DNA from: Proteobacteria bacterium UBA1844
GTDB taxonomy: Bacteria; Pseudomonadota; Gammaproteobacteria; Steroidobacterales; Woeseiaceae
Direction of reading: 5' to 3'
Length of the DNA: 33,772 nt
Assembly: GCA_002338615.1 (NCBI GenBank)
Contig: DDIS01000155.1
Location: 10,907 to 44,678 of the forward strand
Part shown: positions 22,610 to 33,772 of the stretch, piece by piece
Layout of the letters: each line of letters starts with the position of its first letter
Numbering within the stretch: the first letter of the stretch is position 1
Program-made: the position numbers and the translations under genes
Notes under the pieces: model-generated
Databases searched by the model: none
What the model saw: the letters and a program-made list of their open reading frames with translations, nothing else
What the model was told of the DNA's origin: nothing

Positions 22610-24109
22610 ATGACAATAAGCGTACAGTCGAAGATGGCGCGCGGTGCCGCGTGGATGATTCTTTTCAAATGGGTCGAACGTGGACTCGGTCTGTTATCCA
22701 CGTTAATTTTGGTTCGCTTGCTGTCGCCCGCCGACTTCGGCATGGTAGCAATGGCGATGTCGTTCATCTTCATGGCCGAGATGTTCTCGGCTTTTGCGTT
22801 CGATATTGCGCTGATTCACAATCAATCGGCAACCGTCGAACATTACAATTCTGCGTGGACAGCGGACATCCTGCTAGGTGCAATGATCGCCGTCGTGATG
22901 TGGGCCGCTGCCTATCCCATCTCGTTGTTTTACGAGCAGCCCGCCTTGTTCGCGCTTGTCTCAGTTCTTGCGCTGGGACCGCTAGCGACAGGCATGGAAA
23001 ACGTCGGCGTTGTGGCATTTCGCAAAGAGCTCGATTTTCACAAGGAGTTCGCATTCCAGGTGTCCCGCAAGATCATCAGCTTCATCGTAGTGATCCCCCT
23101 CGCCTACTACCTGCGGTCCTACTGGGCGCTGGTTGCCGGCATACTCGCATCCAAGGTGGGAGCGTCGGCGCTGAGTTATTGGGTGCATCCTTTTCGACCC
23201 AGGATTTCGTTCAAGGAACTCGGCTCTCTGATGCAGTTTTCGAAGTGGCTGCTGATCAACAACATTGTCAACTTTCTCAAAGAACGATCCACGGATTTCT
23301 TTGTCGGCAAAATGCAGGGGCCTGGCGTGCTCGGCGTTTTCAATATCAGTTACGAATTCGCAAATCTTCCAACGACTGAAATCGGGGCTCCCGTCAACCG
23401 GGCTCTCTTACCGGGCTTTGCCAAGCTGGGCGACGACTCCGCTGGCATAAATTCATCGATCAAAAATGCGATTGGTCTGGTTGCATTGATCGCTATACCA
23501 ACCGGACTGGGATTGTTTGCTGTCGCGCCGTTTTTTGTGCCCGTAGCGCTCGGTGAAAAATGGCTAGCGTCAGTCCCGGTGATGGAAATCCTGAGTATTA
23601 ACAGTTCGATCCTCGTATTTCACGGCACGATCGTGACACTTTTTATTGCCATGGGCATGCCGCGTAAGGCAACCATGATCAATCTCCTATTCGTTTGTAT
23701 TCTCGTCGCGGGCCTTGCTGTCCTGGTCCGCGATAAAGGTGCCGTTGGCGCCGCATGGTCGATGCTTATCGCTTGCGTCGCCTCGACGCCGGTCTATCTG
23801 TGGCAGGCACGACGACATTGTGGGGTCCCGGTCAGTGCGTTTATTGCCGGGGTGTTCCGCCCTGCGGCCGCCGGCGCCGTTATGGTCCTGGCGGTTCGGG
23901 CGTATATGCCCGATTATATTGTCGGCATGCCGGCTAGCGGGGCCATTGTTATCCTTACTGCTGCGATCGGGCTCGGAGTATCTGCCTATGCCGTTTCGCT
24001 CGCGGGCCTTTGGACGTTGGCGGGACTGCCGGAGGGCCCCGAAAAAATGATCGGGTCAAAAATAGCCTGGCGTATCAAAGCCTTGTTGACTAAGACAACG
24101 GAAGATTGA
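22610..24109 (+). CDS. Polysaccharide flippase (Wzx/MOP superfamily)
   Basis: A 499-residue integral membrane protein with 12-14 predicted helices. The N-terminus (SKMARGAAWMILFKWVERGL, GLLSTLILVRLLSPADFGMVA) is typical of WzxC-like lipopolysaccharide/exopolysaccharide translocases, and EFANLPTTEIGAPVNRALLPGFAKL is the conserved loop of the family. It flips lipid-linked oligosaccharide units from the cytoplasmic to the periplasmic side of the inner membrane for polymerisation. The next gene starts three bases after its stop, so the two form an operon. It is the clearest transport component of the EPS locus here. Confidence 0.9.
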   Translation: MTISVQSKMARGAAWMILFKWVERGLGLLSTLILVRLLSPADFGMVAMAMSFIFMAEMFSAFAFDIALIHNQSATVEHYNSAWTADILLGAMIAVVMWAAAYPISLFYEQPALFALVSVLALGPLATGMENVGVVAFRKELDFHKEFAFQVSRKIISFIVVIPLAYYLRSYWALVAGILASKVGASALSYWVHPFRPRISFKELGSLMQFSKWLLINNIVNFLKERSTDFFVGKMQGPGVLGVFNISYEFANLPTTEIGAPVNRALLPGFAKLGDDSAGINSSIKNAIGLVALIAIPTGLGLFAVAPFFVPVALGEKWLASVPVMEILSINSSILVFHGTIVTLFIAMGMPRKATMINLLFVCILVAGLAVLVRDKGAVGAAWSMLIACVASTPVYLWQARRHCGVPVSAFIAGVFRPAAAGAVMVLAVRAYMPDYIVGMPASGAIVILTAAIGLGVSAYAVSLAGLWTLAGLPEGPEKMIGSKIAWRIKALLTKTTED

Positions 24110-24112
24110 TTA

Positions 24113-25162
24113 ATGAAGAAGCACAGAGTCGCTGCGCAATGGGAAAAACGGATTCGGGCCGGATCCTGGCTCGTCGTGCGCAGCAAGGAAGAGATTCTCA
24201 GTACATTGGACGAGAACGCCTGCCTCGACGGACTGCCTTTTCAACCGGAGATGTTCGCATTCTGTGGCCGGAAAATGCAGGTTGCCAAGGTTGCCCACAA
24301 GACCTGCGACAATATCAAGAAAACAGGTGGCCGTCGCATGGACAGGGCTTTTCACCTTGTCGGGTCACGATGTGACGGGGCGATGCATGGCGGCTGCCAG
24401 GCCGATTGCGTATTCTACTGGAAGGCCGATTGGTTGCGTCCCGACGACGGTGCGCCCGTTTACTCGACAAACAACGGCAGCAACATCAAGTGTCACGAAC
24501 AGGATGTGTATACCCGAGTGCGGGAACGAGGTCATGAAAACAGCAACGATCCTGTTTGGGTATGCCAGACAACGGCTTTGTACGATGCGACGGAGCTTCT
24601 TCACTGGTGGGACGTTCGCCAGTACGTCAAGGACGTTACAAGCGGCAATCACTCGGCCTGGAAAATCATCAAGCTGCTGACGGCGGCCGGTTACCGCAAT
24701 ATTGTTGGACTCGGTTTTGGCTACAGCTACCTGGTACGATTCTACAATGCCGTGCAAAAACTCACCGGCGGCAATCCGTATCCTGGTATCCAGGGAAAAA
24801 TTGCCGAAGGCGCGAAAACGCCGACGGAAGTCCTCGATTTGCAGGTCGGTGAATGGGTAGAAGTGAAGTCGGGTGAAGAAATTGCCTCGACACTCACCGA
24901 AAACGGCTTCAACCGCGGCATGCGCTACGACCCGGAAATGCTCAAGTACTCCAATGGCCGCTACCGCGTACAGATGAAAGTCAATCGCCTCATCGACGAG
25001 ATCACAGGCAAAATGGTGCACATCAAGAACCCCTGCATTCAGCTCGAAGATGTCTACTGCCGCGCCGAATGTACGCCGATGCGGCTGGGCTGCCCGCGGG
25101 CGTCAAATACCTACTGGCGTGAAATCTGGCTGCGCCGCGTCGATGGCCCGCGGACGGACTAA
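24113..25162 (+). CDS. Duplicated cysteine-rich protein of unknown function in the EPS locus
   Basis: A 349-residue soluble protein with no signal peptide or membrane helix. It contains two copies of one domain, at about residues 17-109 and 246-343. Shared features are G-x-W-x-x-V-x-S-x-E-E-I-x-S-T-L near the start, then PEM, a Gly-Arg turn, and an end with C-x-G-x-x-x-x-C and W+x-W-L-R. Copy 1 has Cys 87, 95 and 99 (RCDGAMHGGCQADCVFYWK); copy 2 has Cys 308, 316, 320 and 327 (CIQLEDVYCRAECTPMRLGC). The arrangement suggests metal binding. The middle (about 110-240) has several Trp, two further Cys and a hydrophobic Gly-rich stretch. It starts three bases after the flippase gene, and its stop overlaps that of the convergent nucleotidyltransferase gene. 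I cannot name a function. Confidence 0.8.
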   Translation: MKKHRVAAQWEKRIRAGSWLVVRSKEEILSTLDENACLDGLPFQPEMFAFCGRKMQVAKVAHKTCDNIKKTGGRRMDRAFHLVGSRCDGAMHGGCQADCVFYWKADWLRPDDGAPVYSTNNGSNIKCHEQDVYTRVRERGHENSNDPVWVCQTTALYDATELLHWWDVRQYVKDVTSGNHSAWKIIKLLTAAGYRNIVGLGFGYSYLVRFYNAVQKLTGGNPYPGIQGKIAEGAKTPTEVLDLQVGEWVEVKSGEEIASTLTENGFNRGMRYDPEMLKYSNGRYRVQMKVNRLIDEITGKMVHIKNPCIQLEDVYCRAECTPMRLGCPRASNTYWREIWLRRVDGPRTD

Positions 25163-26280
25163 GCCAGGCGCAAATTTTTGCGGAGAAATTTTACGCTCAG
25201 GTGATACGCCAGCAACCATGGTGGCATGCGTAGCCAGTGCGATCGCACGTACAAAAGCAATCGTGCCAGTTCGGTTGCCCGGCTCGGCAAATCCGGATGT
25301 TGTGGATACAGGGCCCTTGGCACCAGGCGGTCCATTATGCGCACGACAATCCAGGGCGGCGCCCAACGGCGAATTTCCCCGGCTATCCGCTCCGGATAAT
25401 CAGTGTCGAGCAAGCGACTGGCATAGCGCAGGCTGTAGTAAGCTGGCCGGCGAAGATCGAGTTCGCTTGCCCGCAGCACAAGCCGGTCCCAGAACGCCGC
25501 GTCCGCCCCGGCGAAGTGATCGAGCAGGTCGGCAATATCGACCAGATCGCGCAGCTTGTCAGCAAGATCGGAGTCGAACATCAAATGCACCATTGCGTGG
25601 AGCACGATGTCTTCGTCACAGGGAACAGCGTAGCGTGAATCCGGCAAGCGGTGGGATTGAGCCAGGATCCGTTCTCCGCTTGGCTTCAATCTCGCGGTGC
25701 GCGGCAGGATGTTGTGATGAAGATCGATCTCTACCTCGCGCTCTACATGCGTGAGCGGCGGCAGTTCATGCGTCCAGCGCCGGTAGTAGTTGTCGTCGTA
25801 GGGCGTCAGCTCCGCGGACTCCCATCCCATATCCTCGAGAACTTCCTCGACGTAATGCAGGTCGTTTTCCGCGACCATCAGGTCGACGTCCGCAAACAAA
25901 CGCCCGGGTGCATTGGGCAGGCGAAGGAACAGGTACGCACAACCCTTCATCACGACCAGCGGCACTTGCCTGCCTGAGCTCATGGCCCAGGCAATTCGAT
26001 CCAGTTCCCAGGACGCGAGGCGTGCCCGAGCGTCCGCCATGGCCATGCCGCCATGCAACTGGTCAAGGGCGACCTGCGGAAGCTGGTTCGTGCTCCCTTG
26101 GTCCCTGAGCCGGTAGCCCAAATGTCCAAGCAGGCGCGCACGCCTGGCAGCCCGCAGTGTTAAATCGAGATCAGGTAGCGAAAGTTCCGGCAAGCGCTCA
26201 GGTTGCCGGACAACTAGATTCAGCAGTTTGCGCACCTCGTGGGCGGCTCGCCCCACAGATTCAGGTGTCGTCATTGGCAA
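25159..26280 (-). CDS. Nucleotidyltransferase-family protein (NTP_transf_5 type)
   Basis: A 373-residue protein. The core matches the NTP_transf_5 group: VPLVVMKGCAYL (about 107-118), then RLFADVDLMV with a D-x-D metal pair at 131-133, and a third acidic site in VEIDLHHNIL. The C-terminal helical part holds a conserved HAMVHLMFDSDLADKLRDLVD-like stretch. Such proteins probably transfer a nucleotide or nucleotide-sugar part, but the substrate is unknown. The start at 26280 lies inside the end of the kinase gene (20-bp overlap); an ATG at 26274 is the alternative. It is last of four coupled genes in the HPr-rel-A-type operon. Its stop overlaps the convergent cysteine-rich-protein gene. Confidence 0.82.
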   Translation of the reverse strand: MPMTTPESVGRAAHEVRKLLNLVVRQPERLPELSLPDLDLTLRAARRARLLGHLGYRLRDQGSTNQLPQVALDQLHGGMAMADARARLASWELDRIAWAMSSGRQVPLVVMKGCAYLFLRLPNAPGRLFADVDLMVAENDLHYVEEVLEDMGWESAELTPYDDNYYRRWTHELPPLTHVEREVEIDLHHNILPRTARLKPSGERILAQSHRLPDSRYAVPCDEDIVLHAMVHLMFDSDLADKLRDLVDIADLLDHFAGADAAFWDRLVLRASELDLRRPAYYSLRYASRLLDTDYPERIAGEIRRWAPPWIVVRIMDRLVPRALYPQHPDLPSRATELARLLLYVRSHWLRMPPWLLAYHLSVKFLRKNLRLA

Positions 26281-27196
26281 AGTCCGTCAACAGCGCAACG
26301 GCCTCGTTCAGGTCCGAATAGACAAAGCGGTGACAACTCGCGGTGCCGATAAGAGTCGCGACTGCGTTGTATCCGGACTCGCCAAGCAACTCGTAATTGA
26401 ACGCATTCGTCGCGAGGTGCATGAATCCCTCCTGTTTCGGCAACTCGATCAGTGCGCAGGGCGTGTCCGGCCGCCACTCGGGAAACACGAGCCAACGAAC
26501 CGGCGCAGCGTCCTCACTCCGCAGAATCGAGTCGCCAGGTGGCCGGAGGTGCGCCACGGTACCCTTTCGGGTCCCCGGGATTTCGGGTCCGAGATTGGCG
26601 TTGGCAGAGAACCCGCGAATCACACTGATAGATTCGTTCTTGAGGGCCAGCGGCCTCGGCACGGGCAGCATGTCCGGCGTCCCGGGACGCATCAGGCCGA
26701 ATTCGTCGGAAAACAGGCGCCAGCCACTGAGCGACAGACCCGCGCACAGCGTCGTTTTGCCGGCTCCCGGTGCAGCGGGCAATAGCATTGCGTGGCCCCG
26801 GAATTCGGCGATTGCGGAATGCAGCATCAGGAACGCGTGCGAGCGCAGTGCAATGACGAGATTAATGCCCCACTCAAGTACTGCCAGTGCCTGCTCCGCC
26901 GGCATGTCTTCATGCGGCGCTCGACCGTCCACGGAGAACCGGACTCTGGGCGCGCGTAGCCCGGGTACACCCCGTCGCTCGTCGAGTCGCACATGGAAAC
27001 TGAACACAGTGTCATCGGGAAGGAGCGCGTAGTCGCGATACAAGCGATAGAGTGATTCGACGATTCGTTCCGACCGTACGACGATCCGCGCGGCAAACGG
27101 CCCGATTTGTACCCCGATGCCATCATGCAAACGCTGACCGAAGTGCTGCTCGCTCAGATCGCCCACCCGAGCTGCACCGGTGCTGTTTGCCGTCAT
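26261..27196 (-). CDS. HprK-related kinase A
   Basis: A 311-residue protein with a kinase P-loop APGAGKTTL (about 142-150) preceded by LMLHSAIAEFRG and followed by FSDEFGL (about 162-168), as in HPr kinase/phosphorylase. It lacks the full HprK length and N-terminal domain and fits the HprK-related kinase A group found with PqqD-like proteins in exosortase loci. Family knowledge: the biochemical activity is unproven. By analogy it would phosphorylate a protein or small molecule using ATP or pyrophosphate. The ATG overlaps the stop of the PqqD-like gene by four bases, and its 3' end overlaps the nucleotidyltransferase gene. Cytoplasmic. Confidence 0.88.
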   Translation of the reverse strand: MTANSTGAARVGDLSEQHFGQRLHDGIGVQIGPFAARIVVRSERIVESLYRLYRDYALLPDDTVFSFHVRLDERRGVPGLRAPRVRFSVDGRAPHEDMPAEQALAVLEWGINLVIALRSHAFLMLHSAIAEFRGHAMLLPAAPGAGKTTLCAGLSLSGWRLFSDEFGLMRPGTPDMLPVPRPLALKNESISVIRGFSANANLGPEIPGTRKGTVAHLRPPGDSILRSEDAAPVRWLVFPEWRPDTPCALIELPKQEGFMHLATNAFNYELLGESGYNAVATLIGTASCHRFVYSDLNEAVALLTDFANDDT

Positions 27197-27498
27197 ATCC
27201 GTTCGATCATACCGAGGTGTTCGAGTCGCGCGAGCAGTAGGGCAATCTCCTCGTGATGTTCAGGGGAATCTGCCGGGCCGTCCGGTGGCGGAAACGACAT
27301 TGCCACCGCCTGCGTCGATCTCGGCTCAACGAGGAAATATTGAACCAACGCGGCGCTGGCCGCATTAAGAAAATGGGTTCGGCCGGACGGCCTATGGTAG
27401 ACGACGTGTTCATCGTCCCAACCATTCCAGAGAAGCTGGTCGGGGTCAACGGACCGCCACAATCGGGCGCTGGTATACGTGCTGCTGCCCGACTCCAC
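27193..27498 (-). CDS. PqqD-like peptide chaperone of the HPr-rel-A system
   Basis: A 101-residue protein with the PqqD fold pattern. An N-terminal strand region W+VDPDQLLWNGWDDEHVVYH is followed by PSGRTHFLNAASAALVQYF (the characteristic L-N-x-x-A-x-x-L) and a helix to LLARLEHLGMIERI. PqqD proteins bind a precursor peptide and present it to a modifying enzyme. Here the partner would be the HprK-related kinase or nucleotidyltransferase, and the cargo may be the Tat-exported protein encoded just upstream. The start is a GTG at 27498 without a clear ribosome site, 20 bp after that gene. The stop overlaps the kinase start. Confidence 0.82.
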   Translation of the reverse strand: MESGSSTYTSARLWRSVDPDQLLWNGWDDEHVVYHRPSGRTHFLNAASAALVQYFLVEPRSTQAVAMSFPPPDGPADSPEHHEEIALLLARLEHLGMIERI

Positions 27499-27518
27499 GC
27501 GCTTTGTACGTTAGGGAA

Positions 27519-28001
27519 TCAGAGGTCGGTAACGACGATATTGCTTGAGAACGAGGTCAACGCAGTAGCCGAAACAATAATACCTTGCCTAACATTGACT
27601 TCCTGCCAGCGCCGGCCCCAGGGCTTGTAGTAGTATGCGCCGCCATCCTTGCACATGGCCGATTCGCGCACTCTCGCTGCCTGCCACATCGGCGCCCGCC
27701 GGTAATCCCGGTCGCGAATCGCGCTGATTCGGGCAGACGCCGGATCGCCAAGATCGTACAGGTTGCCCGATCCGCGCACACGATCTACTGATCGGGGATC
27801 GAGGCACAAGGTGCGGCCAAACCGGTCCGTCGTTGCCACCGGAGACGCGGAAATCACATTGCTGGAGCGAGCCAGCGCAGCACCGCTCTGCAATGTCAGT
27901 ATCGTCGGAACTGTCGCTACCGATGCACGAAGAACCGCCCGGCGGCTGACCGCTGGTTTCTCGGTGGCCTCATTAGGCTTGATCGGATCCTGCGTTGACA
28001 T
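27519..28001 (-). CDS. Small Tat-exported protein, candidate cargo of the HPr-rel-A system
   Basis: A 160-residue protein that I cannot assign to a named family. It has a twin-arginine signal: SRRAVLR at residues 19-25, then the weakly hydrophobic core ASVATVPTILTLQSGAALA with an A-x-A-type cleavage site near residue 44. The mature part begins RSSNVISASP, has two cysteines (66 and 117), an Arg-rich middle (RISAIRDRDYRRAP) and a Tyr/Trp-rich stretch (GGAYYYKPWGRRWQEV). It ends in a hydrophobic IIVSATALTSFSSNIVVTDL-like tail. Tat export suggests folding or cofactor loading in the cytoplasm before export. It is the first gene after a sigma-54 promoter, with GGAAAG six bases before the ATG, and leads the operon with the PqqD-like and HprK-like genes. 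Confidence 0.75.
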   Translation of the reverse strand: MSTQDPIKPNEATEKPAVSRRAVLRASVATVPTILTLQSGAALARSSNVISASPVATTDRFGRTLCLDPRSVDRVRGSGNLYDLGDPASARISAIRDRDYRRAPMWQAARVRESAMCKDGGAYYYKPWGRRWQEVNVRQGIIVSATALTSFSSNIVVTDL

Positions 28002-28082
28002 GTTAAGCTTTCCGAGTCGAGTTGAGCCGGCGAATTAAATTCGGCCCACATAGGTGGTTTGTCAGTAGAACACTCAGAGTAA

Positions 28083-28098
28083 AGCAAGCCTCGTGCCA
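28083..28098 (-). promoter_or_regulatory. Sigma-54 (RpoN) promoter of the HPr-rel-A operon
   Basis: On the minus strand TGGCACGAGGCTTGCT matches the full -24/-12 consensus, with GG and GC 10 bases apart and a T before TGGCACG. The start should be near 28072, giving a leader of about 70 nt before the Tat-exported-protein gene. Confidence 0.88.
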
Positions 28099-28181
28099 AT
28101 AGCAATTTCTCTCGTTTTTTCATAGTGTTGCGGTGACTATCACACTGTTGTTTCTGTGTCACTGTATAGTAATCCGACAGA

Positions 28182-28193
28182 GCAATCGCCGAC
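28182..28193 (-). promoter_or_regulatory. Candidate upstream activator site for the second sigma-54 promoter
   Basis: Minus-strand GTCGGCGATTGC differs by one base from GTCGGCGGTTGC at 18460. It lies 83 bp before the sigma-54 box (91 bp in the other case), in the same orientation relative to the promoter. A second GTCGG follows 14 bases on. It also sits just before the start of the glycosyltransferase gene on the other strand. Confidence 0.45.
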
Positions 28194-28196
28194 AAC

Positions 28197-29414
28197 ATGA
28201 AGATACTGCATGTGCTGGACCATAGTTTGCCGCTACACAGCGGTTACACTTTTCGCAGCAAAAGCATCATCAATGCACAACAATCTTTCGGGTGGGTTCC
28301 CGTCGCCGTGACGTCCCCGAAGCATGAGGCCAACTGGCCAAATGCGACGGAACCTGAAGAAATCATCGACGGTATTCGCTTCATTCGTTCCGGAGCTGTC
28401 CCTGACTGCGCATCACCGTTACTGGAAATTCGTATGGTGCGTCGCCTGTACAAGAGGATTTGCGCTGCCATCGAGGCGGAAAAGCCGGATATCTTGCACG
28501 CCCATTCCCCCGTGCTGAATGGCTTGGCCGCCCTCTGTGCCGGCAGGCGATTCGGCCTGCCGGTTGTCTACGAAATCCGTGCATTTTGGGAGGATGCCGC
28601 CGTCAGTCACGGTTCCTACGGCGCTAACACAGCGCGATATAAAGCGGTTGCTGCCGCCGAAACTTTCGTTTGTCGCCGTGTTTCGCAGGTTGCGGTGCTT
28701 TGCGACGGACTAAAGGAAGATCTTATCCGCCGCGGCATTGATAAGGAAAAAATTACGCCCGTGCCGAACGCGGCAGACTTGGAAAGCTTCGGGGATTGCC
28801 AACCCGCGACGAGGCTTGCAGCCGAATGGGCTCTAGAAGGCAAACAGGTTATAGGATTTATCGGGTCGTTCTACGATTACGAAGGCCTCGATTTACTCGT
28901 TAGCGCTTTTGCAGAGCTGGTCCAAAGCTTGCCGAACCTGGTCTTGCTGCTCGTCGGCGGCGGCAGAATGGAACAACAGATCAAAGAGCAGGTTACCGGC
29001 TTGGGCCTCCATGAACGGGTTGTCTTTGCCGGCCGGATTCCGCACCAACAGGTGCCTGGGGTTTACAAATTGATGCAACTGGCGGTGTTTCCAAGGTACT
29101 CGATGAGACTGACGGAGCTCGTAACTCCTCTCAAGCCGCTGGAGGCTATGGCTATGCGCACTGCCTGTCTCGCGAGTGACATCGGCGGCCATCGCGAACT
29201 CATTAAACGGAACGAAACCGGATTTCTGTTTCCGCCGGGCGACACCGATGCCCTTGCGCAGGCGATCGGGGATCTACTCAGCTCGCCCGATATGCTGACC
29301 TGCGTGACCGACCGGGCCCACGACTGGATAGTTCGCGAACGCAACTGGACCGCAACAAACGCGCGTTATGTTGAAATCTATGCGAGGGCGATGTCAGCGC
29401 CCGCGGCCGCCTGA
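28197..29414 (+). CDS. Exosortase A system-associated glycosyltransferase (GT4)
   Basis: A 405-residue GT-B glycosyltransferase. The N-terminus MKILHVLDHSLPLHSGYTF with later TSPKHE is the hallmark of the exosortase A-associated (Daro_2409-type) group. The C-terminal half has IGFIGSFYDYEGLDLL, VVFAGRIPHQQVPGVY and LTELVTPLKPLEAMAMRTA with the donor-binding E-x7-E motif, then ASDIGGHRELI. It adds a sugar, from an NDP-sugar, to the growing lipid-linked EPS unit on the cytoplasmic face. It diverges from the Tat-protein operon; the intervening 195 bp is shared regulatory DNA. The ATG at 28197 is fixed by the family start. Confidence 0.9.
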   Translation: MKILHVLDHSLPLHSGYTFRSKSIINAQQSFGWVPVAVTSPKHEANWPNATEPEEIIDGIRFIRSGAVPDCASPLLEIRMVRRLYKRICAAIEAEKPDILHAHSPVLNGLAALCAGRRFGLPVVYEIRAFWEDAAVSHGSYGANTARYKAVAAAETFVCRRVSQVAVLCDGLKEDLIRRGIDKEKITPVPNAADLESFGDCQPATRLAAEWALEGKQVIGFIGSFYDYEGLDLLVSAFAELVQSLPNLVLLLVGGGRMEQQIKEQVTGLGLHERVVFAGRIPHQQVPGVYKLMQLAVFPRYSMRLTELVTPLKPLEAMAMRTACLASDIGGHRELIKRNETGFLFPPGDTDALAQAIGDLLSSPDMLTCVTDRAHDWIVRERNWTATNARYVEIYARAMSAPAAA

Positions 29415-29522
29415 ATGTCGGTATAATTATCTTGCCGCGAACGATCGAGTAGATACTCTATAGGGATGGGCTTCCCAAACAAGCACTGCGGCTACTACGG
29501 TTACCGGGGAACAGAGCCAGCG

Positions 29523-30962
29523 ATGAACATGAAAAAAGCCCGAACGCGGCTTAAGCCGACGCTCATGCGACGCCCCGTAATCGGCGCGGCGACTCTGGCG
29601 CTGGCGACTGTGACACCTGCTACCTCTTTGGCCGATCCTTGGGAGGGTGGCGCATACATCGAAGTTGGCGTCATACATTCCGACAATATTTATCTTTCAG
29701 CAACAGATCCTGAGGAAGATTTTCTGTTGATGCTCGCCCCGGGTCTGCGCTATACAAAAGACAGCGAACGCTTCAATGGCACGATTGACTATCGCATGGA
29801 AGCCTTTCGATACCAGGATCTGGCGGACTCCAGCGATATATCGCACCTGCTCAATGCAGAGCTGACCACAACGCTGCTACGGGACAAGTTTTACCTTGAC
29901 ACCAACGCGAACGCCGGCCAAGCCATCGTTTCTGCGGACGCCCCAATCGTATTGACCAACGTTCCCATCACCGGCAACCGTGCCGATTATTTCGATTTCA
30001 CCGTACAACCTCGCTGGGAACAACGAATCGGCTCAGTCGATCTTGAAGCCCGGAGCGCGTATACCAACTACAATTTCGATACGGAGGACGAAATTGGCGA
30101 GGCCGACTACCAAATTGAGAGTAACTTCGAACTAGACAACGAGCATCTGCAACGCGGTATCGTCTGGGACTTGAGATACGAACACACGCGCGCCACATTC
30201 GAAGGCGCATTGCCTTACGAATATCAGCGTGCCGACTTTACGCTGGGATTGTGGGTAAACAGCGCGCTGCAGATATTCGGTTTGTACGGTCACGAGACAC
30301 CGATCGATGAGTTTCTGGATCCCAGCATGGATTCAGAGGTGTGGGAAGCTGGCTTCCTCTACGTGCCGAGCGAGCGAATGCGGATCGAACTCGCGGCGGG
30401 CGAACGGGGCTTCGGCGATTCCTACCGGGCAGACATCAACATCGCCGGACAACGCAGCGAACTCAGCCTGACTTACGATGAAGGCCCGGCAACCCGGGCA
30501 TCGATCGTGGCTGGCGGTAGCGTCGTCGATTATGGCCCAACAGAAGGCCTGTTCGACCCGCTCGGCACCGGCGACCGGTTTCTGCAAAAGCTTGGCGCGT
30601 TCGTATTCACGCGACAAATGCCCAAGAGTCAGTTCCAGATCCAGCTACTAAGCGATCGTCGTGAAAACGTCCTCACGGCTACCGGCCCCAGCCGCGCGGA
30701 TGAGCAATATGACAGCGCGATAGCTACCTATGAATGGGATGTATCCGCTCGCGTCGCGATTGAACTCGGTGCCGAATACCTGAAGTTCGAAGACGAAGTC
30801 CGCGACGGTGATCTGAAGCGCGGGCGATTCTCGGTCACCTATGGGCTGGGGGCACGCACCGCGTTGACGTTTGCCATCGACCACATCGTGAACAATGACA
30901 TCTCATTTCCCTATGTCGCAACCCAGGTATCGCTGGTGCTGCGCCGCGATTTTAGTCTCTGA
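29523..30962 (+). CDS. Outer-membrane beta-barrel protein of the XrtA/PEP-CTERM EPS system
   Basis: A 479-residue protein. A signal peptide (MNMKKARTRLKPTLMRRPVI, then a hydrophobic AATLALATVTPATSLA with cleavage before DPWEGG) precedes a chain of amphipathic beta strands. It has the family-like opening GAYIEVGVIHSDNIYLSATD and GLRYTKDSERFNGTIDYRM, and a C-terminal strand VSLVLRRDFSL. It matches the uncharacterised outer-membrane protein group found with PEP-CTERM systems (TIGR03016-like), perhaps the EPS export channel or its partner. The ATG at 29523 (or 29529) is chosen as the signal-peptide start; the frame is open further upstream. TATAAT at 29422-29427 is a possible -10. It lies between a glycosyltransferase and the amidotransferase gene. 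Confidence 0.8.
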   Translation: MNMKKARTRLKPTLMRRPVIGAATLALATVTPATSLADPWEGGAYIEVGVIHSDNIYLSATDPEEDFLLMLAPGLRYTKDSERFNGTIDYRMEAFRYQDLADSSDISHLLNAELTTTLLRDKFYLDTNANAGQAIVSADAPIVLTNVPITGNRADYFDFTVQPRWEQRIGSVDLEARSAYTNYNFDTEDEIGEADYQIESNFELDNEHLQRGIVWDLRYEHTRATFEGALPYEYQRADFTLGLWVNSALQIFGLYGHETPIDEFLDPSMDSEVWEAGFLYVPSERMRIELAAGERGFGDSYRADINIAGQRSELSLTYDEGPATRASIVAGGSVVDYGPTEGLFDPLGTGDRFLQKLGAFVFTRQMPKSQFQIQLLSDRRENVLTATGPSRADEQYDSAIATYEWDVSARVAIELGAEYLKFEDEVRDGDLKRGRFSVTYGLGARTALTFAIDHIVNNDISFPYVATQVSLVLRRDFSL

Positions 30963-31012
30963 AGCAAGTGGCGGGATGTCAGCAATAATACTCCTCCGCG
31001 TAGTGCACTAGT

Positions 31013-32911
31013 ATGTGTGGCATCGCCGGGCTGGTTGACCTTCGCGATAAGCGCCCTGTCAACGACAGGTTGCTTCGCGCCATGAGCGACAGTCTGCTGC
31101 ATCGCGGACCGGACGCGAGCGGCACATTCTGCAAGCCGGGCGTCGGCTTGAGCCACCGGCGATTGTCGATCATCGATCTCGCATCCGGCCAGCAGCCGAT
31201 GTTGAGTGCAGACGGCCGCTTCACCCTTGTTTACAACGGTGAGCTGTACAACTACCGCGAGCTGCGTGAGGAGCTTATGAAACTTGGGCGGCGGTTTCGA
31301 ACCAAATCAGACACCGAGGTTTTGCTCCAATGTTGGGAAACGTGGGGCGAAGACTGCCTGCCAAGACTGAACGGCATGTTCGCATTCGCAATCTGGAACC
31401 AGGAAACCAGCGAACTCTATCTTGCCAGGGACCCGATAGGCATCAAGCCGCTCTACTACGCCTTGCTCCCGGACGGCTGGCTGGCGTTCGGATCCGAACT
31501 GAAAGCACTGCAACGTTGTCCGGATTTACCCAGGGAACTTGATCCTCGCGCGGTCGAAGACTATTTTACTTTCGGCTACATACCCGACCCAAAGACGATC
31601 TATGCGGGTGTATTCAAGCTACCGCCCGCGCATGCGCTCCGCTGTCAGCGTGGCAAACCAACTCCCCCACCCCGGCGGTACTGGGCGTTGGAATTCTCCA
31701 GAAACGCCGGGACGAACATTGATGTTCTGCAGCGGGAATTACTCGAGCGCTTTGACAGTGCCGTGCAGAGGCAAATGGTCGCGGACGTCCCGCTCGGCGC
31801 ATTCCTGTCCGGCGGCGTCGACTCGTCAGCCGTTGTCGCATCGATGGCGATGAGTGCACCCGATCCAGTGAGTACCTGTTCCATAGGCTTTGCCGATCCC
31901 CAATACAACGAAGCCAATTACGCCGCGATCGTCGCCAAACGTTACGCAACGAATCACGATTGCCGCATCGTGAGTGCCGATGATTTCTCGCTTGCTGACT
32001 CGCTGATCGCCCTCTACGACGAGCCCTTCGCCGACAGTTCGGCGCTACCAACATACCGCGTGTGTGAGCTTGCGCGTAGCAAAGTGAAAGTGGCGCTGTC
32101 CGGTGACGGCGGTGACGAATGCTACGCGGGTTATCGACGCTATCTCTGGCACATGCGCGAGGAACAGGTACGCTCCGTGTTGCCGCTCGCTGTACGCTCC
32201 CGTGTATTCGGCTGGCTAGGTCGCCATTATCCCAAGCTGGATCGGGCACCGCGCGTCTTTCGCGCCAAGACCACTTTCGAATCGCTAGCGATGTCTAGCG
32301 CAACGGCGTATCTGCACTCGGTATCGATCTTTCCGGCGGAATTACGGGCGCGCCTGTTCAGCAAACGGATGGCTACGGAATTGCAGTGCTATCGCTCGCA
32401 TGAAGTCTTTGCCGAGCACGCGCGAAACGGTCCGCAGGACTCGCTGTCTCTGATTCAGTACCTCGATTTTCAAACCTATCTTCCAGGCGATATTCTTACC
32501 AAGGTTGACCGTGCCAGCATGGCGCACAGCCTCGAAGTTCGCGTGCCGATTCTCGATCGCGAACTCGTCGACTGGGCCGCCAGTGTGTCAACCAAATACC
32601 GTATCAAAAACGGCGAAGGCAAATACCTTCTAAAGCGTGCATTCGAGCCGCGCTTGCCACGACAGATTCTTTACCGGGCAAAGAAAGGCTTTGCGGTGCC
32701 TGTTGAGGACTGGTTTCGAGGGCCGCTGCGGCAGGCGATATCGGATACCGTCGCAGGCGGGCGCCTCGCGGCAACCGGGTTATTCGAAGTCGACGAGCTC
32801 AAGAGGCTCGTTAGAGAACATCAGTCGGGGCGTAGCAATTACACGCCCGTACTCTGGGCCCTGTACATGTTCGACGGTTTCATGCGCCGAGAGGCTGACG
32901 GCCGTTCATGA
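31013..32911 (+). CDS. Asparagine synthase-like amidotransferase, XrtA/PEP-CTERM type
   Basis: A 632-residue enzyme. The N-terminal class II glutaminase domain has Cys2 as nucleophile (MCGIAGLVD), HRGPDASG, HRRLSIIDLASGQQPM and YNGELYNY. The C-terminal synthetase domain has the PP-loop SGGVDSSAVVASM and SGDGGDECYAGYRRY, and ends with ILYRAKKGFAVPVEDWF. The length and gene context match the XrtA system amidotransferase group (TIGR03108-like). It would release ammonia from glutamine and amidate an acidic group, possibly on the polysaccharide; the acceptor is not known. The start is ATG 31013, the only one compatible with Cys2. Confidence 0.93.
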   Translation: MCGIAGLVDLRDKRPVNDRLLRAMSDSLLHRGPDASGTFCKPGVGLSHRRLSIIDLASGQQPMLSADGRFTLVYNGELYNYRELREELMKLGRRFRTKSDTEVLLQCWETWGEDCLPRLNGMFAFAIWNQETSELYLARDPIGIKPLYYALLPDGWLAFGSELKALQRCPDLPRELDPRAVEDYFTFGYIPDPKTIYAGVFKLPPAHALRCQRGKPTPPPRRYWALEFSRNAGTNIDVLQRELLERFDSAVQRQMVADVPLGAFLSGGVDSSAVVASMAMSAPDPVSTCSIGFADPQYNEANYAAIVAKRYATNHDCRIVSADDFSLADSLIALYDEPFADSSALPTYRVCELARSKVKVALSGDGGDECYAGYRRYLWHMREEQVRSVLPLAVRSRVFGWLGRHYPKLDRAPRVFRAKTTFESLAMSSATAYLHSVSIFPAELRARLFSKRMATELQCYRSHEVFAEHARNGPQDSLSLIQYLDFQTYLPGDILTKVDRASMAHSLEVRVPILDRELVDWAASVSTKYRIKNGEGKYLLKRAFEPRLPRQILYRAKKGFAVPVEDWFRGPLRQAISDTVAGGRLAATGLFEVDELKRLVREHQSGRSNYTPVLWALYMFDGFMRREADGRS

Positions 32912-32963
32912 CGGATCAAATGCAGCGCGCGTTAGGCCACTCGCGGGCCGTCGACGGCGGCGA

Positions 32964-33772
32964 ATGTTAAATCTGCTCGTTTATTCCTCGCTGTTCCCGA
33001 GCAGTGTCGCACCGCAGCACGGTATCTTCGTGGCCGAACGCCTGCGGCACATGCTGCGGCACGGTTTCTCCGCTAAAGTCGTCGCGCCTGTACCGTGGTT
33101 TCCGTTGCGATCGCCGCTATTCGGTCACTACGCGGTATACACGCAAACTTCGCGCCGCGACACCTTTGCCGGGATTGACGTCGTCTATCCACGCTACCCT
33201 CATATACCGAAGTTCGGGATGAGGACCGCTCCCGATTTGATGCGGTGGGGTACGGAGCACGTGGTTCGCAAGCTTTGCCACCCGGCGGTCGCTGCGATTG
33301 ATGCACACTACTTCTATCCCGACGGTGTCGCGGCGTGCGCGATCGGCAGGAGCCTCGGACTCCCGGTCGTCGTGACTGCGAGAGGCAGTGACATCAATTT
33401 GCTGCCCCGGTATCCTGGACCGCGTCGCCGGGTTCTAGCCGCCGCGAACTCGGCCGCGGCGATCGTCGCAGTTTCGGACAGTCTCCGTTCAGCAATGGTC
33501 GATCTTGGCATGCAGGCGGACAAAATTCGGGTGATCCGGAACGGTGTCGATACCGAACAATTCGCACCGCATGAGCGACCCGCAATCGACAAAGGCAGAG
33601 GCAGCGAGACCCTGTTGATGGTCGGTAACCTGGTACCTGAAAAAGGTCACGAACTTGCATTGAAAACGCTGGCGCGGCTACCGGGTAGTCATCTTAGAAT
33701 CGCCGGTGACGGACCCTTGCGCTCGCGGCTGGCTCGCAGCACGCAGCGGCTTGGCTTAGGCGAGCGAGTGAC
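32964..33772 (+). CDS. Glycosyltransferase family 4 protein, cut by the window end
   Basis: An open frame of 269 codons from the ATG at 32964 to the end of the window. It starts MLNLLVYSSLFPSSVAPQHG, then IFVAERLRHMLRHGF and VVAPVPWFPLRSP, the opening of an EPS-type GT-B glycosyltransferase. Further on it has DAHYFYPDGVAACAIGRSLG, VVTARGSDINLLPRYPG, IRVIRNGVDTEQFAP and LLMVGNLVPEKGHELAL; the last marks the start of the nucleotide-sugar domain. The rest of that domain lies outside. The gene begins 52 bp after the amidotransferase stop, probably in the same operon. It resembles PEP-CTERM-associated sugar transferases. Confidence 0.88.
   Translation, partial: MLNLLVYSSLFPSSVAPQHGIFVAERLRHMLRHGFSAKVVAPVPWFPLRSPLFGHYAVYTQTSRRDTFAGIDVVYPRYPHIPKFGMRTAPDLMRWGTEHVVRKLCHPAVAAIDAHYFYPDGVAACAIGRSLGLPVVVTARGSDINLLPRYPGPRRRVLAAANSAAAIVAVSDSLRSAMVDLGMQADKIRVIRNGVDTEQFAPHERPAIDKGRGSETLLMVGNLVPEKGHELALKTLARLPGSHLRIAGDGPLRSRLARSTQRLGLGERV

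Follow-up and report, generated by a model that had tools for sequence, protein, structure and literature searches.

A putative RiPP-like modification cassette with an HprK-type kinase and a twin-arginine-exported protein as its predicted substrate in Proteobacteria

The closest described systems in which HprK-like kinases act on ribosomally synthesized and post-translationally modified peptides (RiPPs) are the phosphorylated lasso peptides and the linear polyphosphorylated peptides (LPPs). According to a review of the former (PMC9266682), the His-Lys-Asp-Asp motif of the lasso kinases is essential, the kinase PadeK modifies the C-terminal Ser of its lasso peptide and, in the case of pseudomycoidin, the presence of hexoses on the phospho-Ser depends on PsmN, a nucleotidyltransferase homolog, possibly through a nucleotidyl intermediate. 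The LPPs, which a 2026 study (PMC13381572) calls restricted to Bacillota, are reported there to have the leader consensus YxxPxVLxHQxIxFETxxS and a kinase, LppK, that phosphorylates Ser3 of a core starting with AQSNWK. Here we analyze a 33,772-nucleotide stretch of DNA from the gammaproteobacterium UBA1844 (contig DDIS01000155.1; hereinafter, the window) that encompasses a cassette of four genes encoding a protein with a twin-arginine translocation (Tat) signal, a PqqD-like protein, an HprK-like kinase and a nucleotidyltransferase. This cassette is probably a RiPP-like modification system whose substrate would be a folded, Tat-exported protein, that is, a Gram-negative relative of the HprK-kinase RiPP systems within the regulon that controls PEP-CTERM proteins and exopolysaccharide (EPS).

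Analysis of open reading frames (ORFs) places all four genes on the minus strand, in the order listed above. The Tat-signal protein, the predicted precursor and substrate (27519-28001; 160 aa, ATG start), is followed by the PqqD-like protein of the TIGR04353 family (27193-27498; 101 aa, GTG start), the HprK-related kinase A of the TIGR04352 family (26261-27196; 311 aa, ATG start) and the nucleotidyltransferase of PF14907 (NTP_transf_5; 25159-26280; 373 aa from a TTG start, with an in-frame ATG six bases inside). The compact operon that an earlier note on this DNA proposed is borne out, with a 20 nt gap between the Tat and PqqD genes and overlaps of 4 nt between the PqqD and HprK genes and of 20 nt between the HprK and nucleotidyltransferase genes. 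The family assignments are all above the respective cut-offs: 322.2 bits for the kinase (cut-off 200), 47.1 bits for the PqqD protein (cut-off 35) and 171 bits for the nucleotidyltransferase (cut-off 31). The kinase and the PqqD protein thus both belong to the HPr-rel-A set of NCBIfam (TIGR04352 and TIGR04353) whose names, among those seen, cover a kinase and a chaperone; the window adds to these a Tat precursor for which no family is above the cut-off.

In the proposed mechanism, the PqqD-type protein would serve as a discrete RiPP recognition element (RRE) that holds the N-terminal signal/leader of the Tat protein (twin Arg, P-x-I-L-T-L-Q and A-L-A), and the HprK-type kinase would phosphorylate a conserved Ser, possibly repeatedly and most likely Ser47 at position +3 from the predicted cleavage site. 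The nucleotidyltransferase-fold enzyme would then put a sugar or a nucleotide on the phosphate, after which the modified, folded protein would exit via the Tat system, the leader would be cut off by signal peptidase and the product would act in the envelope or the EPS. Expression of the cassette would be driven by PrsR and sigma-54, similarly to PEP-CTERM genes.

The model of the PqqD-like protein (predicted local distance difference test score, pLDDT, 89.9) shows a discrete RRE fold, and its six top Foldseek matches are all chains of lasso B1-leader complexes (three entries). The suggestion of the earlier note that the PqqD protein escorts the Tat protein as its cargo finds support in this leader-binding fold, from which we infer the binding itself. 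The catalytic motifs of both enzymes are fully conserved: H126, K147, D164, E165 and K186 are identical in all 100 aligned kinases, and K112, G113, R127, D131 and D133 of the nucleotidyltransferase (the K-G and D-x-D motifs, numbered from the TTG start) in all 95 aligned sequences. The correspondence between the His-Lys-Asp-Asp motif of the lasso kinases and the invariant His, Lys, Asp and Glu of the window kinase is assumed without an alignment. The role suggested for the nucleotidyltransferase is the weakest step of the proposed mechanism because no detectable change followed when lppN was deleted in the LPP system (PMC13381572). Taken as a whole, the locus has several of the features by which an RRE-dependent RiPP is recognized, namely, a precursor gene beside an RRE gene, a conserved leader and a variable core.

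For the Tat protein itself, neither Pfam nor NCBIfam yields a family at an E-value of 0.1, and a PEP-CTERM domain at its C terminus was not found in NCBIfam at the same threshold. Among nine Tat precursors scanned against NCBIfam, none had a match above the cut-off, the single sub-threshold one being to SepX/GlpR (E 0.025). The arrangement is nevertheless unlikely to be due to chance, given that 97 other proteins match the Tat protein at E <= 1e-3 and that the gene order is conserved. Tat signals are recognized by a twin-arginine motif, a hydrophobic stretch and an AxA cleavage site, and all three are present in this protein, by pattern. Two alignments were derived from the 99 proteins of this search, one of 31 rows chosen to take in the most divergent members and the other of 65 rows without the most divergent ones; in both, P32, S39, G40, A42, A44, S47, N48, C66, D83, C117, G140, S144 and S150 are invariant, and W132 is near-invariant in the larger one. 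The two cysteines that the earlier note had picked out, C66 and C117, are thus among the invariant residues. By contrast, the hydrophobic tail seen in that note corresponds, in the AlphaFold model, to a short helix and a strand of a folded domain and is not an obvious membrane anchor. The model (mean pLDDT 78.9) contains a confident small beta-rich domain behind a low-confidence signal and linker, with ten-residue blocks at 81-97 from residue 51 on, 60 for the block containing Ser47 and 45 for the preceding block. A fold search found no relative of this model in the PDB. The folded mature protein, as modeled, fits the use of the Tat route.

Conservation is concentrated in the leader. The segment comprising the twin-arginine signal and leader, residues 20-44 (RRAVLRASVATVPTILTLQSGAALA; 27870-27944, minus strand), includes the invariant P32, and the mean fraction of the top residue is 0.92 across residues 32-48 (P32-N48), compared with 0.53 across residues 49-138. 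Such strong conservation of P32-N48 appears, in our judgment, unusual for a signal peptide. By the AxA rule, signal peptidase is predicted to cut after A44 (ALA|RSSN), which places the invariant Ser47 (27861-27863, minus strand), the favored kinase target, at +3 and the likewise invariant Asn48 at +4. A Ser at +3 is found in 62 of the 83 distinct leaders that have an AxA-type site; these 83 are a subset of the 86 distinct leaders obtained from the loci that match the leader pattern (89 of 111), among which the entries for L009 and L125 represent wrong ORFs.

These features are reminiscent of the LPP systems (PMC13381572). As described in that study, the latter share with the window cassette a discrete RRE, an HprK-like kinase and a nucleoside triphosphate (NTP) transferase (the kinship to LppK and LppN is by description only), a conserved N-terminal region combined with a variable C terminus, with LPP precursors of 35-200 aa, and the location in a polysaccharide locus. 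The window leader has in common with the LPP leaders P(-13), V/I(-11), L(-10), Q(-7) and a Ser at +3 followed by Asn, and the Ala at -1 is permitted in LPPs as well. An equal or higher score in the LPP register was obtained for 0.05% of permuted leaders, the register having been noticed before the test. The differences lie in processing and in the core: LPPs employ a dedicated SipW-like peptidase and an MsbA-like transporter, whereas the window protein has a twin-arginine signal and is presumably cleaved by the housekeeping signal peptidase; furthermore, unlike LPPs, the window protein has a core modeled as a folded domain and a leader without Tyr. With the phosphorylated lasso peptides paeninodin and pseudomycoidin (PMC9266682), the cassette shares the RRE and the HprK-like kinase and, in the case of pseudomycoidin, also a nucleotidyltransferase homolog; unlike in the lasso clusters, no lasso cyclase or leader peptidase was seen in it. 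An AsnB-like protein encoded in the window, the XrtA amidotransferase, was considered as a candidate lasso macrolactam cyclase and rejected, given 247 bits to NF033535 (cut-off 525) compared with 937 bits to TIGR03108.

Lasso kinases also suggest a different target within the same system, namely, the C-terminal Ser. The motif SATALTSF (residues 144-151; 27549-27572, minus strand) contains S144 and S150, both invariant in the two alignments; a looser version of this tail motif is present in 81 of 87 distinct tails, compared with 667 of 4350 shuffled ones (15%), and the similar endings SCWxSF and TC[YF]ASL occur in other classes of precursors that are otherwise unlike in sequence. As already indicated, PadeK acts on a C-terminal Ser (PMC9266682). 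However, Ser150 is not the last residue, in the model it is directly preceded by a short helix that belongs to the folded domain, and the end bound by the RRE is presumably the N terminus. We therefore consider the system with a C-terminal target rather unlikely. Comparing the two residues as phosphosites, Ser47, to which we would assign an about even chance, is favored over Ser150, a distinctly poorer candidate.

The precursors are diverse. In nine loci (L139-L147), the protein encoded upstream of PqqD belongs to a class with a C[EQ]IPVP-like start, in which, by eye, Ser is at +5 from the predicted cut rather than at +3 (9/9); the fully read members end with TC[YF]ASLQ. The divergent precursors located upstream of PqqD in L125, L126, L134, L135 and L137 contain SPGxW and C-x-x-S-G motifs shortly past the signal and comprise a further class. 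L043 (3093-4600) carries a tandem pair of Tat-family ORFs ahead of the PqqD and kinase genes, resembling multi-precursor clusters.

The association of the Tat protein with the other components was assessed in two sets of genomes: named genomes scanned with the window's own kinase, which yielded 61 loci and are biased towards close relatives, and 398 genomes sampled evenly across the phylum. Among the relatives, the Tat-family profile matches 60 of the 61 loci, and the exception (L002) has only about 135 bases ahead of the PqqD start. The gene order Tat-PqqD-kinase-nucleotidyltransferase recurs in this set; L061 differs, and L011 and L059 end before the nucleotidyltransferase. In the phylum sample, TIGR04352 is above the cut-off in 61 genomes and the Tat family is present in 36, all of which are among these 61 (Fisher p 4e-35, with kinship ignored). 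Absence of the Tat protein from most homologous loci, which the earlier note had named among the findings that would refute its proposal, is thus not what these genomes display. Among the 25 kinase genomes outside the Tat-family set, four (L127-L130) have weak Tat-family matches upstream of the kinase (E 4e-4 to 1e-2), one locus (L133) is cut by the contig end, and in most of the others, this position is occupied by another small protein that has an RR signal.

A family-independent rule, an ORF with RR and a hydrophobic stretch that ends 100-900 bp upstream of the kinase, was positive in 61/61 loci (60 relatives and the window) and in 48/57 loci of the sample, compared with 4/61 and 7/57 on the opposite strand and with 4 and 2 positives 3 kb downstream, where only loci with enough sequence were included. 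The sample loci represent 58 of the 61 kinase genomes, reduced to 57 by L133 that is too short upstream; of the remaining three genomes, that of the window is counted with the relatives, and G125 and G173 are not represented in this set by their kinase contigs. The rule is imperfect: it selected another ORF in L009 and L011, despite a Tat-profile match in these loci, and the ORFs chosen in L127 and L089 are probably incorrect. Among the nine rule-negative loci, other measures point to a candidate in L128, L090 and L110, the pair in L080 is divergently transcribed, and the genomes of L150, L158 and L083 carry the Tat gene on another contig; in L138 and L148, no Tat-like candidate was found by the rule or by the other measures. 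The kinase has a PqqD-profile match next to it in 128 of the 151 loci that have at least 900 bp upstream (duplicates counted). The hosts of HPr-rel-A cassettes include Nitrosomonas, Accumulibacter, purple sulfur bacteria and other environmental proteobacteria. In addition, a Bythopirellula sp. locus (L003) encodes a cassette kinase 54% identical to that of the window, due either to transfer or to a misbinned contig.

In three genomes (G069, G125 and G268), the Tat and PqqD genes adjoin and the kinase is on another contig; the stretches carrying these pairs (10.1, 3.1 and 10.2 kb, respectively) contain no kinase or nucleotidyltransferase match, and the ORFs flanking the G268 pair seem, by eye, unrelated. 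Because the pair sits apart from the kinase in these genomes, a direct relation between the Tat and PqqD proteins is favored. The loci with Tat-PqqD pairs that lack an adjoining kinase or nucleotidyltransferase, with the kinase on another contig, are L151 (4498-5252), L159 (4411-5165) and L120 (1306-2296). The separability of the pair, together with the better conservation of the signal region than of the mature part, would fit a scenario in which the PqqD protein functions in proofreading as a Tat chaperone and the only role of the kinase is to gate export, through phosphorylation of either this chaperone or the signal peptide, with the mature protein left unmodified. This scenario is very improbable in our assessment given that, in most loci, the kinase is followed by a nucleotidyltransferase with conserved motifs and that, in the related systems, it is the core that is modified (PMC9266682, PMC13381572).

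A further line of evidence concerns expression. As described in a 2006 study (PMC1569441), PEP-CTERM genes are preceded by a 17-nt motif 1 ending with TTTACA, a spacer of 62.8 nt (standard deviation 10.6, range 32-92) and a sigma-54 motif 2, and in a floc former, PEP-CTERM expression is reported to be RpoN-dependent (PMC9850573). The consensus sigma-54 promoter pointed out in the earlier note is indeed present 81 nt ahead of the Tat start (TTGGCACGAGGCTTGCT; 28083-28099, minus strand), without a mismatch to the scanned consensus, and corresponds to motif 2 of the PEP-CTERM box. Located 63 nt upstream of it, within the described range, is a probable PrsR activator site (motif 1; TGTCGGATTACTATACA; 28163-28179, minus strand) that ends with TATACA, one mismatch from TTTACA (compared with the published ending rather than with the full logo). 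Sigma-54 sites with at most one mismatch were detected in 21 of 87 upstream regions, compared with 107 of 6828 control windows. When only published features are used, exact TTTACA is found at the described range in 11 of the 21 sigma-54-bearing regions, the window being one of the 21, compared with 3.5% of shuffles. Most of the aligned motif-1 sites, including that of the window, have TGTCG at the 5' end. The paired box is present upstream of 42 of 94 cassettes (35/60 and 7/34), compared with 17 of 1651 background windows; its TGTCG half was learned from the same loci, many of which are from Nitrosomonas or Accumulibacter. The presence of a PEP-CTERM-type paired promoter box upstream of these cassettes is a new observation. 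PrsR is encoded in the genome of the window (706 bits). The spacer, motif 2, PrsR and a probable motif 1 are shared with the PEP-CTERM/PrsK-PrsR regulon, and control of the cassette by PrsR appears likely. In distinction from PEP-CTERM genes, which mostly form single-gene operons (PMC1569441), the Tat gene is the first of an operon and encodes no PEP-CTERM domain.

The cassette adjoins XrtA/PEP-CTERM-type EPS genes encoding a TIGR04063 glycosyltransferase, a TIGR03016 outer-membrane protein and a TIGR03108 amidotransferase (28197-32911, plus strand), all above the NCBIfam cut-offs. In the 398-genome sample, 24 of the 34 genomes that have XrtA above the cut-off also carry the kinase (p 1e-14, with kinship ignored), whereas 37 of the 61 kinase genomes have no XrtA above the cut-off, which argues against a strict exosortase link. 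The coupling of the modification to EPS assembly that the earlier note envisaged gains support from the promoter type and the XrtA co-occurrence and is weakened by the exosortase search in the genome itself (see below). An alternative in which the kinase and the nucleotidyltransferase work on EPS or a lipid-linked sugar, whereas the Tat protein is merely co-regulated with them as a periplasmic partner of EPS, would agree with the adjoining EPS genes, with the occurrence, in several loci of the sample, of a TIGR03108-type amidotransferase close to the cassette and with the common promoter type, but it leaves unexplained the RRE fold, the PqqD-Tat gene pairing and the cassettes without EPS neighbors and is improbable to the same degree as the gating of export.

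Several observations, in addition to the second conserved Ser near the C terminus, weigh against the modification system proposed here. In 22 of the 111 loci with a presumed precursor, the leader pattern RR..P-x-[IVLM]-x-[TS]-L is absent (in some of them because the rule overlooked it; eight loci of the sample are outside the count). The window leader deviates from the LPP leader motif, matching 4 of 10 positions under strict criteria or 5 when V/I/L are allowed, with Tyr, His, Ile, Phe and Glu all absent; the missing Tyr is the one used by the RREs of LPPs, as described for the latter. No dedicated leader peptidase was seen, and no signal peptidase family, such as the archaeal-type signal peptidase I of LPP clusters, was detected in the 22 window ORFs scanned, partly with strict thresholds. 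In the window's own assembly, which is 94% complete, an exosortase was not found with TIGR03109 and PF09721, and no site there matches the box in its strict TTTACA form. Finally, the Nitrosomonas loci contain no homolog of the window EPS genes within the examined stretch of up to 8 kb on each side.

Additional features of the neighborhood can be outlined briefly. XrtA/PEP-CTERM-type EPS genes are located within 22610-33770 of the window, and these genes coexist with PrsR in a genome in the assembly of which the exosortase was not found. A homolog of the TIGR03108-type XrtA amidotransferase, a relative of AsnB, is located beside or close to the cassette in L127, L128, L130, L154-L158, L161 and L163, three of these being confirmed with NCBIfam. 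A 349-aa ORF (24113-25162, plus strand) that converges on the nucleotidyltransferase gene, with a 4-nt overlap at the 3' end of the latter, matches no family above the cut-off, and its homolog is absent among the loci of the relatives (L002-L062).

The earlier note considered the cassette a possibly undescribed modification system. The cassette is not wholly undescribed in kind because HprK-like kinases and their nucleotidyltransferase partners have described chemistry in lasso peptides and LPPs; the variant itself is new. No paper was found that mentions the HPr-rel-A kinase by name or model number, subscription papers and preprints being outside the scope of the search. The sole match for the combination of PEP-CTERM, HprK and PqqD concerns, judging by its abstract, another system; for twin-arginine and RiPP, among the matches listed, only a genome comparison of Amycolatopsis (PMC11004387) holds both hprk and twin-arginine; and, by term search, the word kinase is absent from the main texts of two RRE surveys.

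For the HPr-rel-A family, a probable substrate, candidate phosphosites and a probable regulon are now directly testable. A more speculative extension, which we regard as quite improbable, is that the RRE would also act as a chaperone of the Tat signal and free the folded protein for export only after the kinase and the nucleotidyltransferase complete a Ser-linked phospho-sugar, with the phosphodiester handle serving as the priming or attachment point of an XrtA-type exopolysaccharide on a secreted protein. If the proposed modification system is real, leader recognition of the RiPP type and phosphorylation would reach beyond short peptides to folded, Tat-exported proteins, and covalent protein modification would become a candidate for the missing piece of the PEP-CTERM/EPS program that lies beneath flocs and biofilms.

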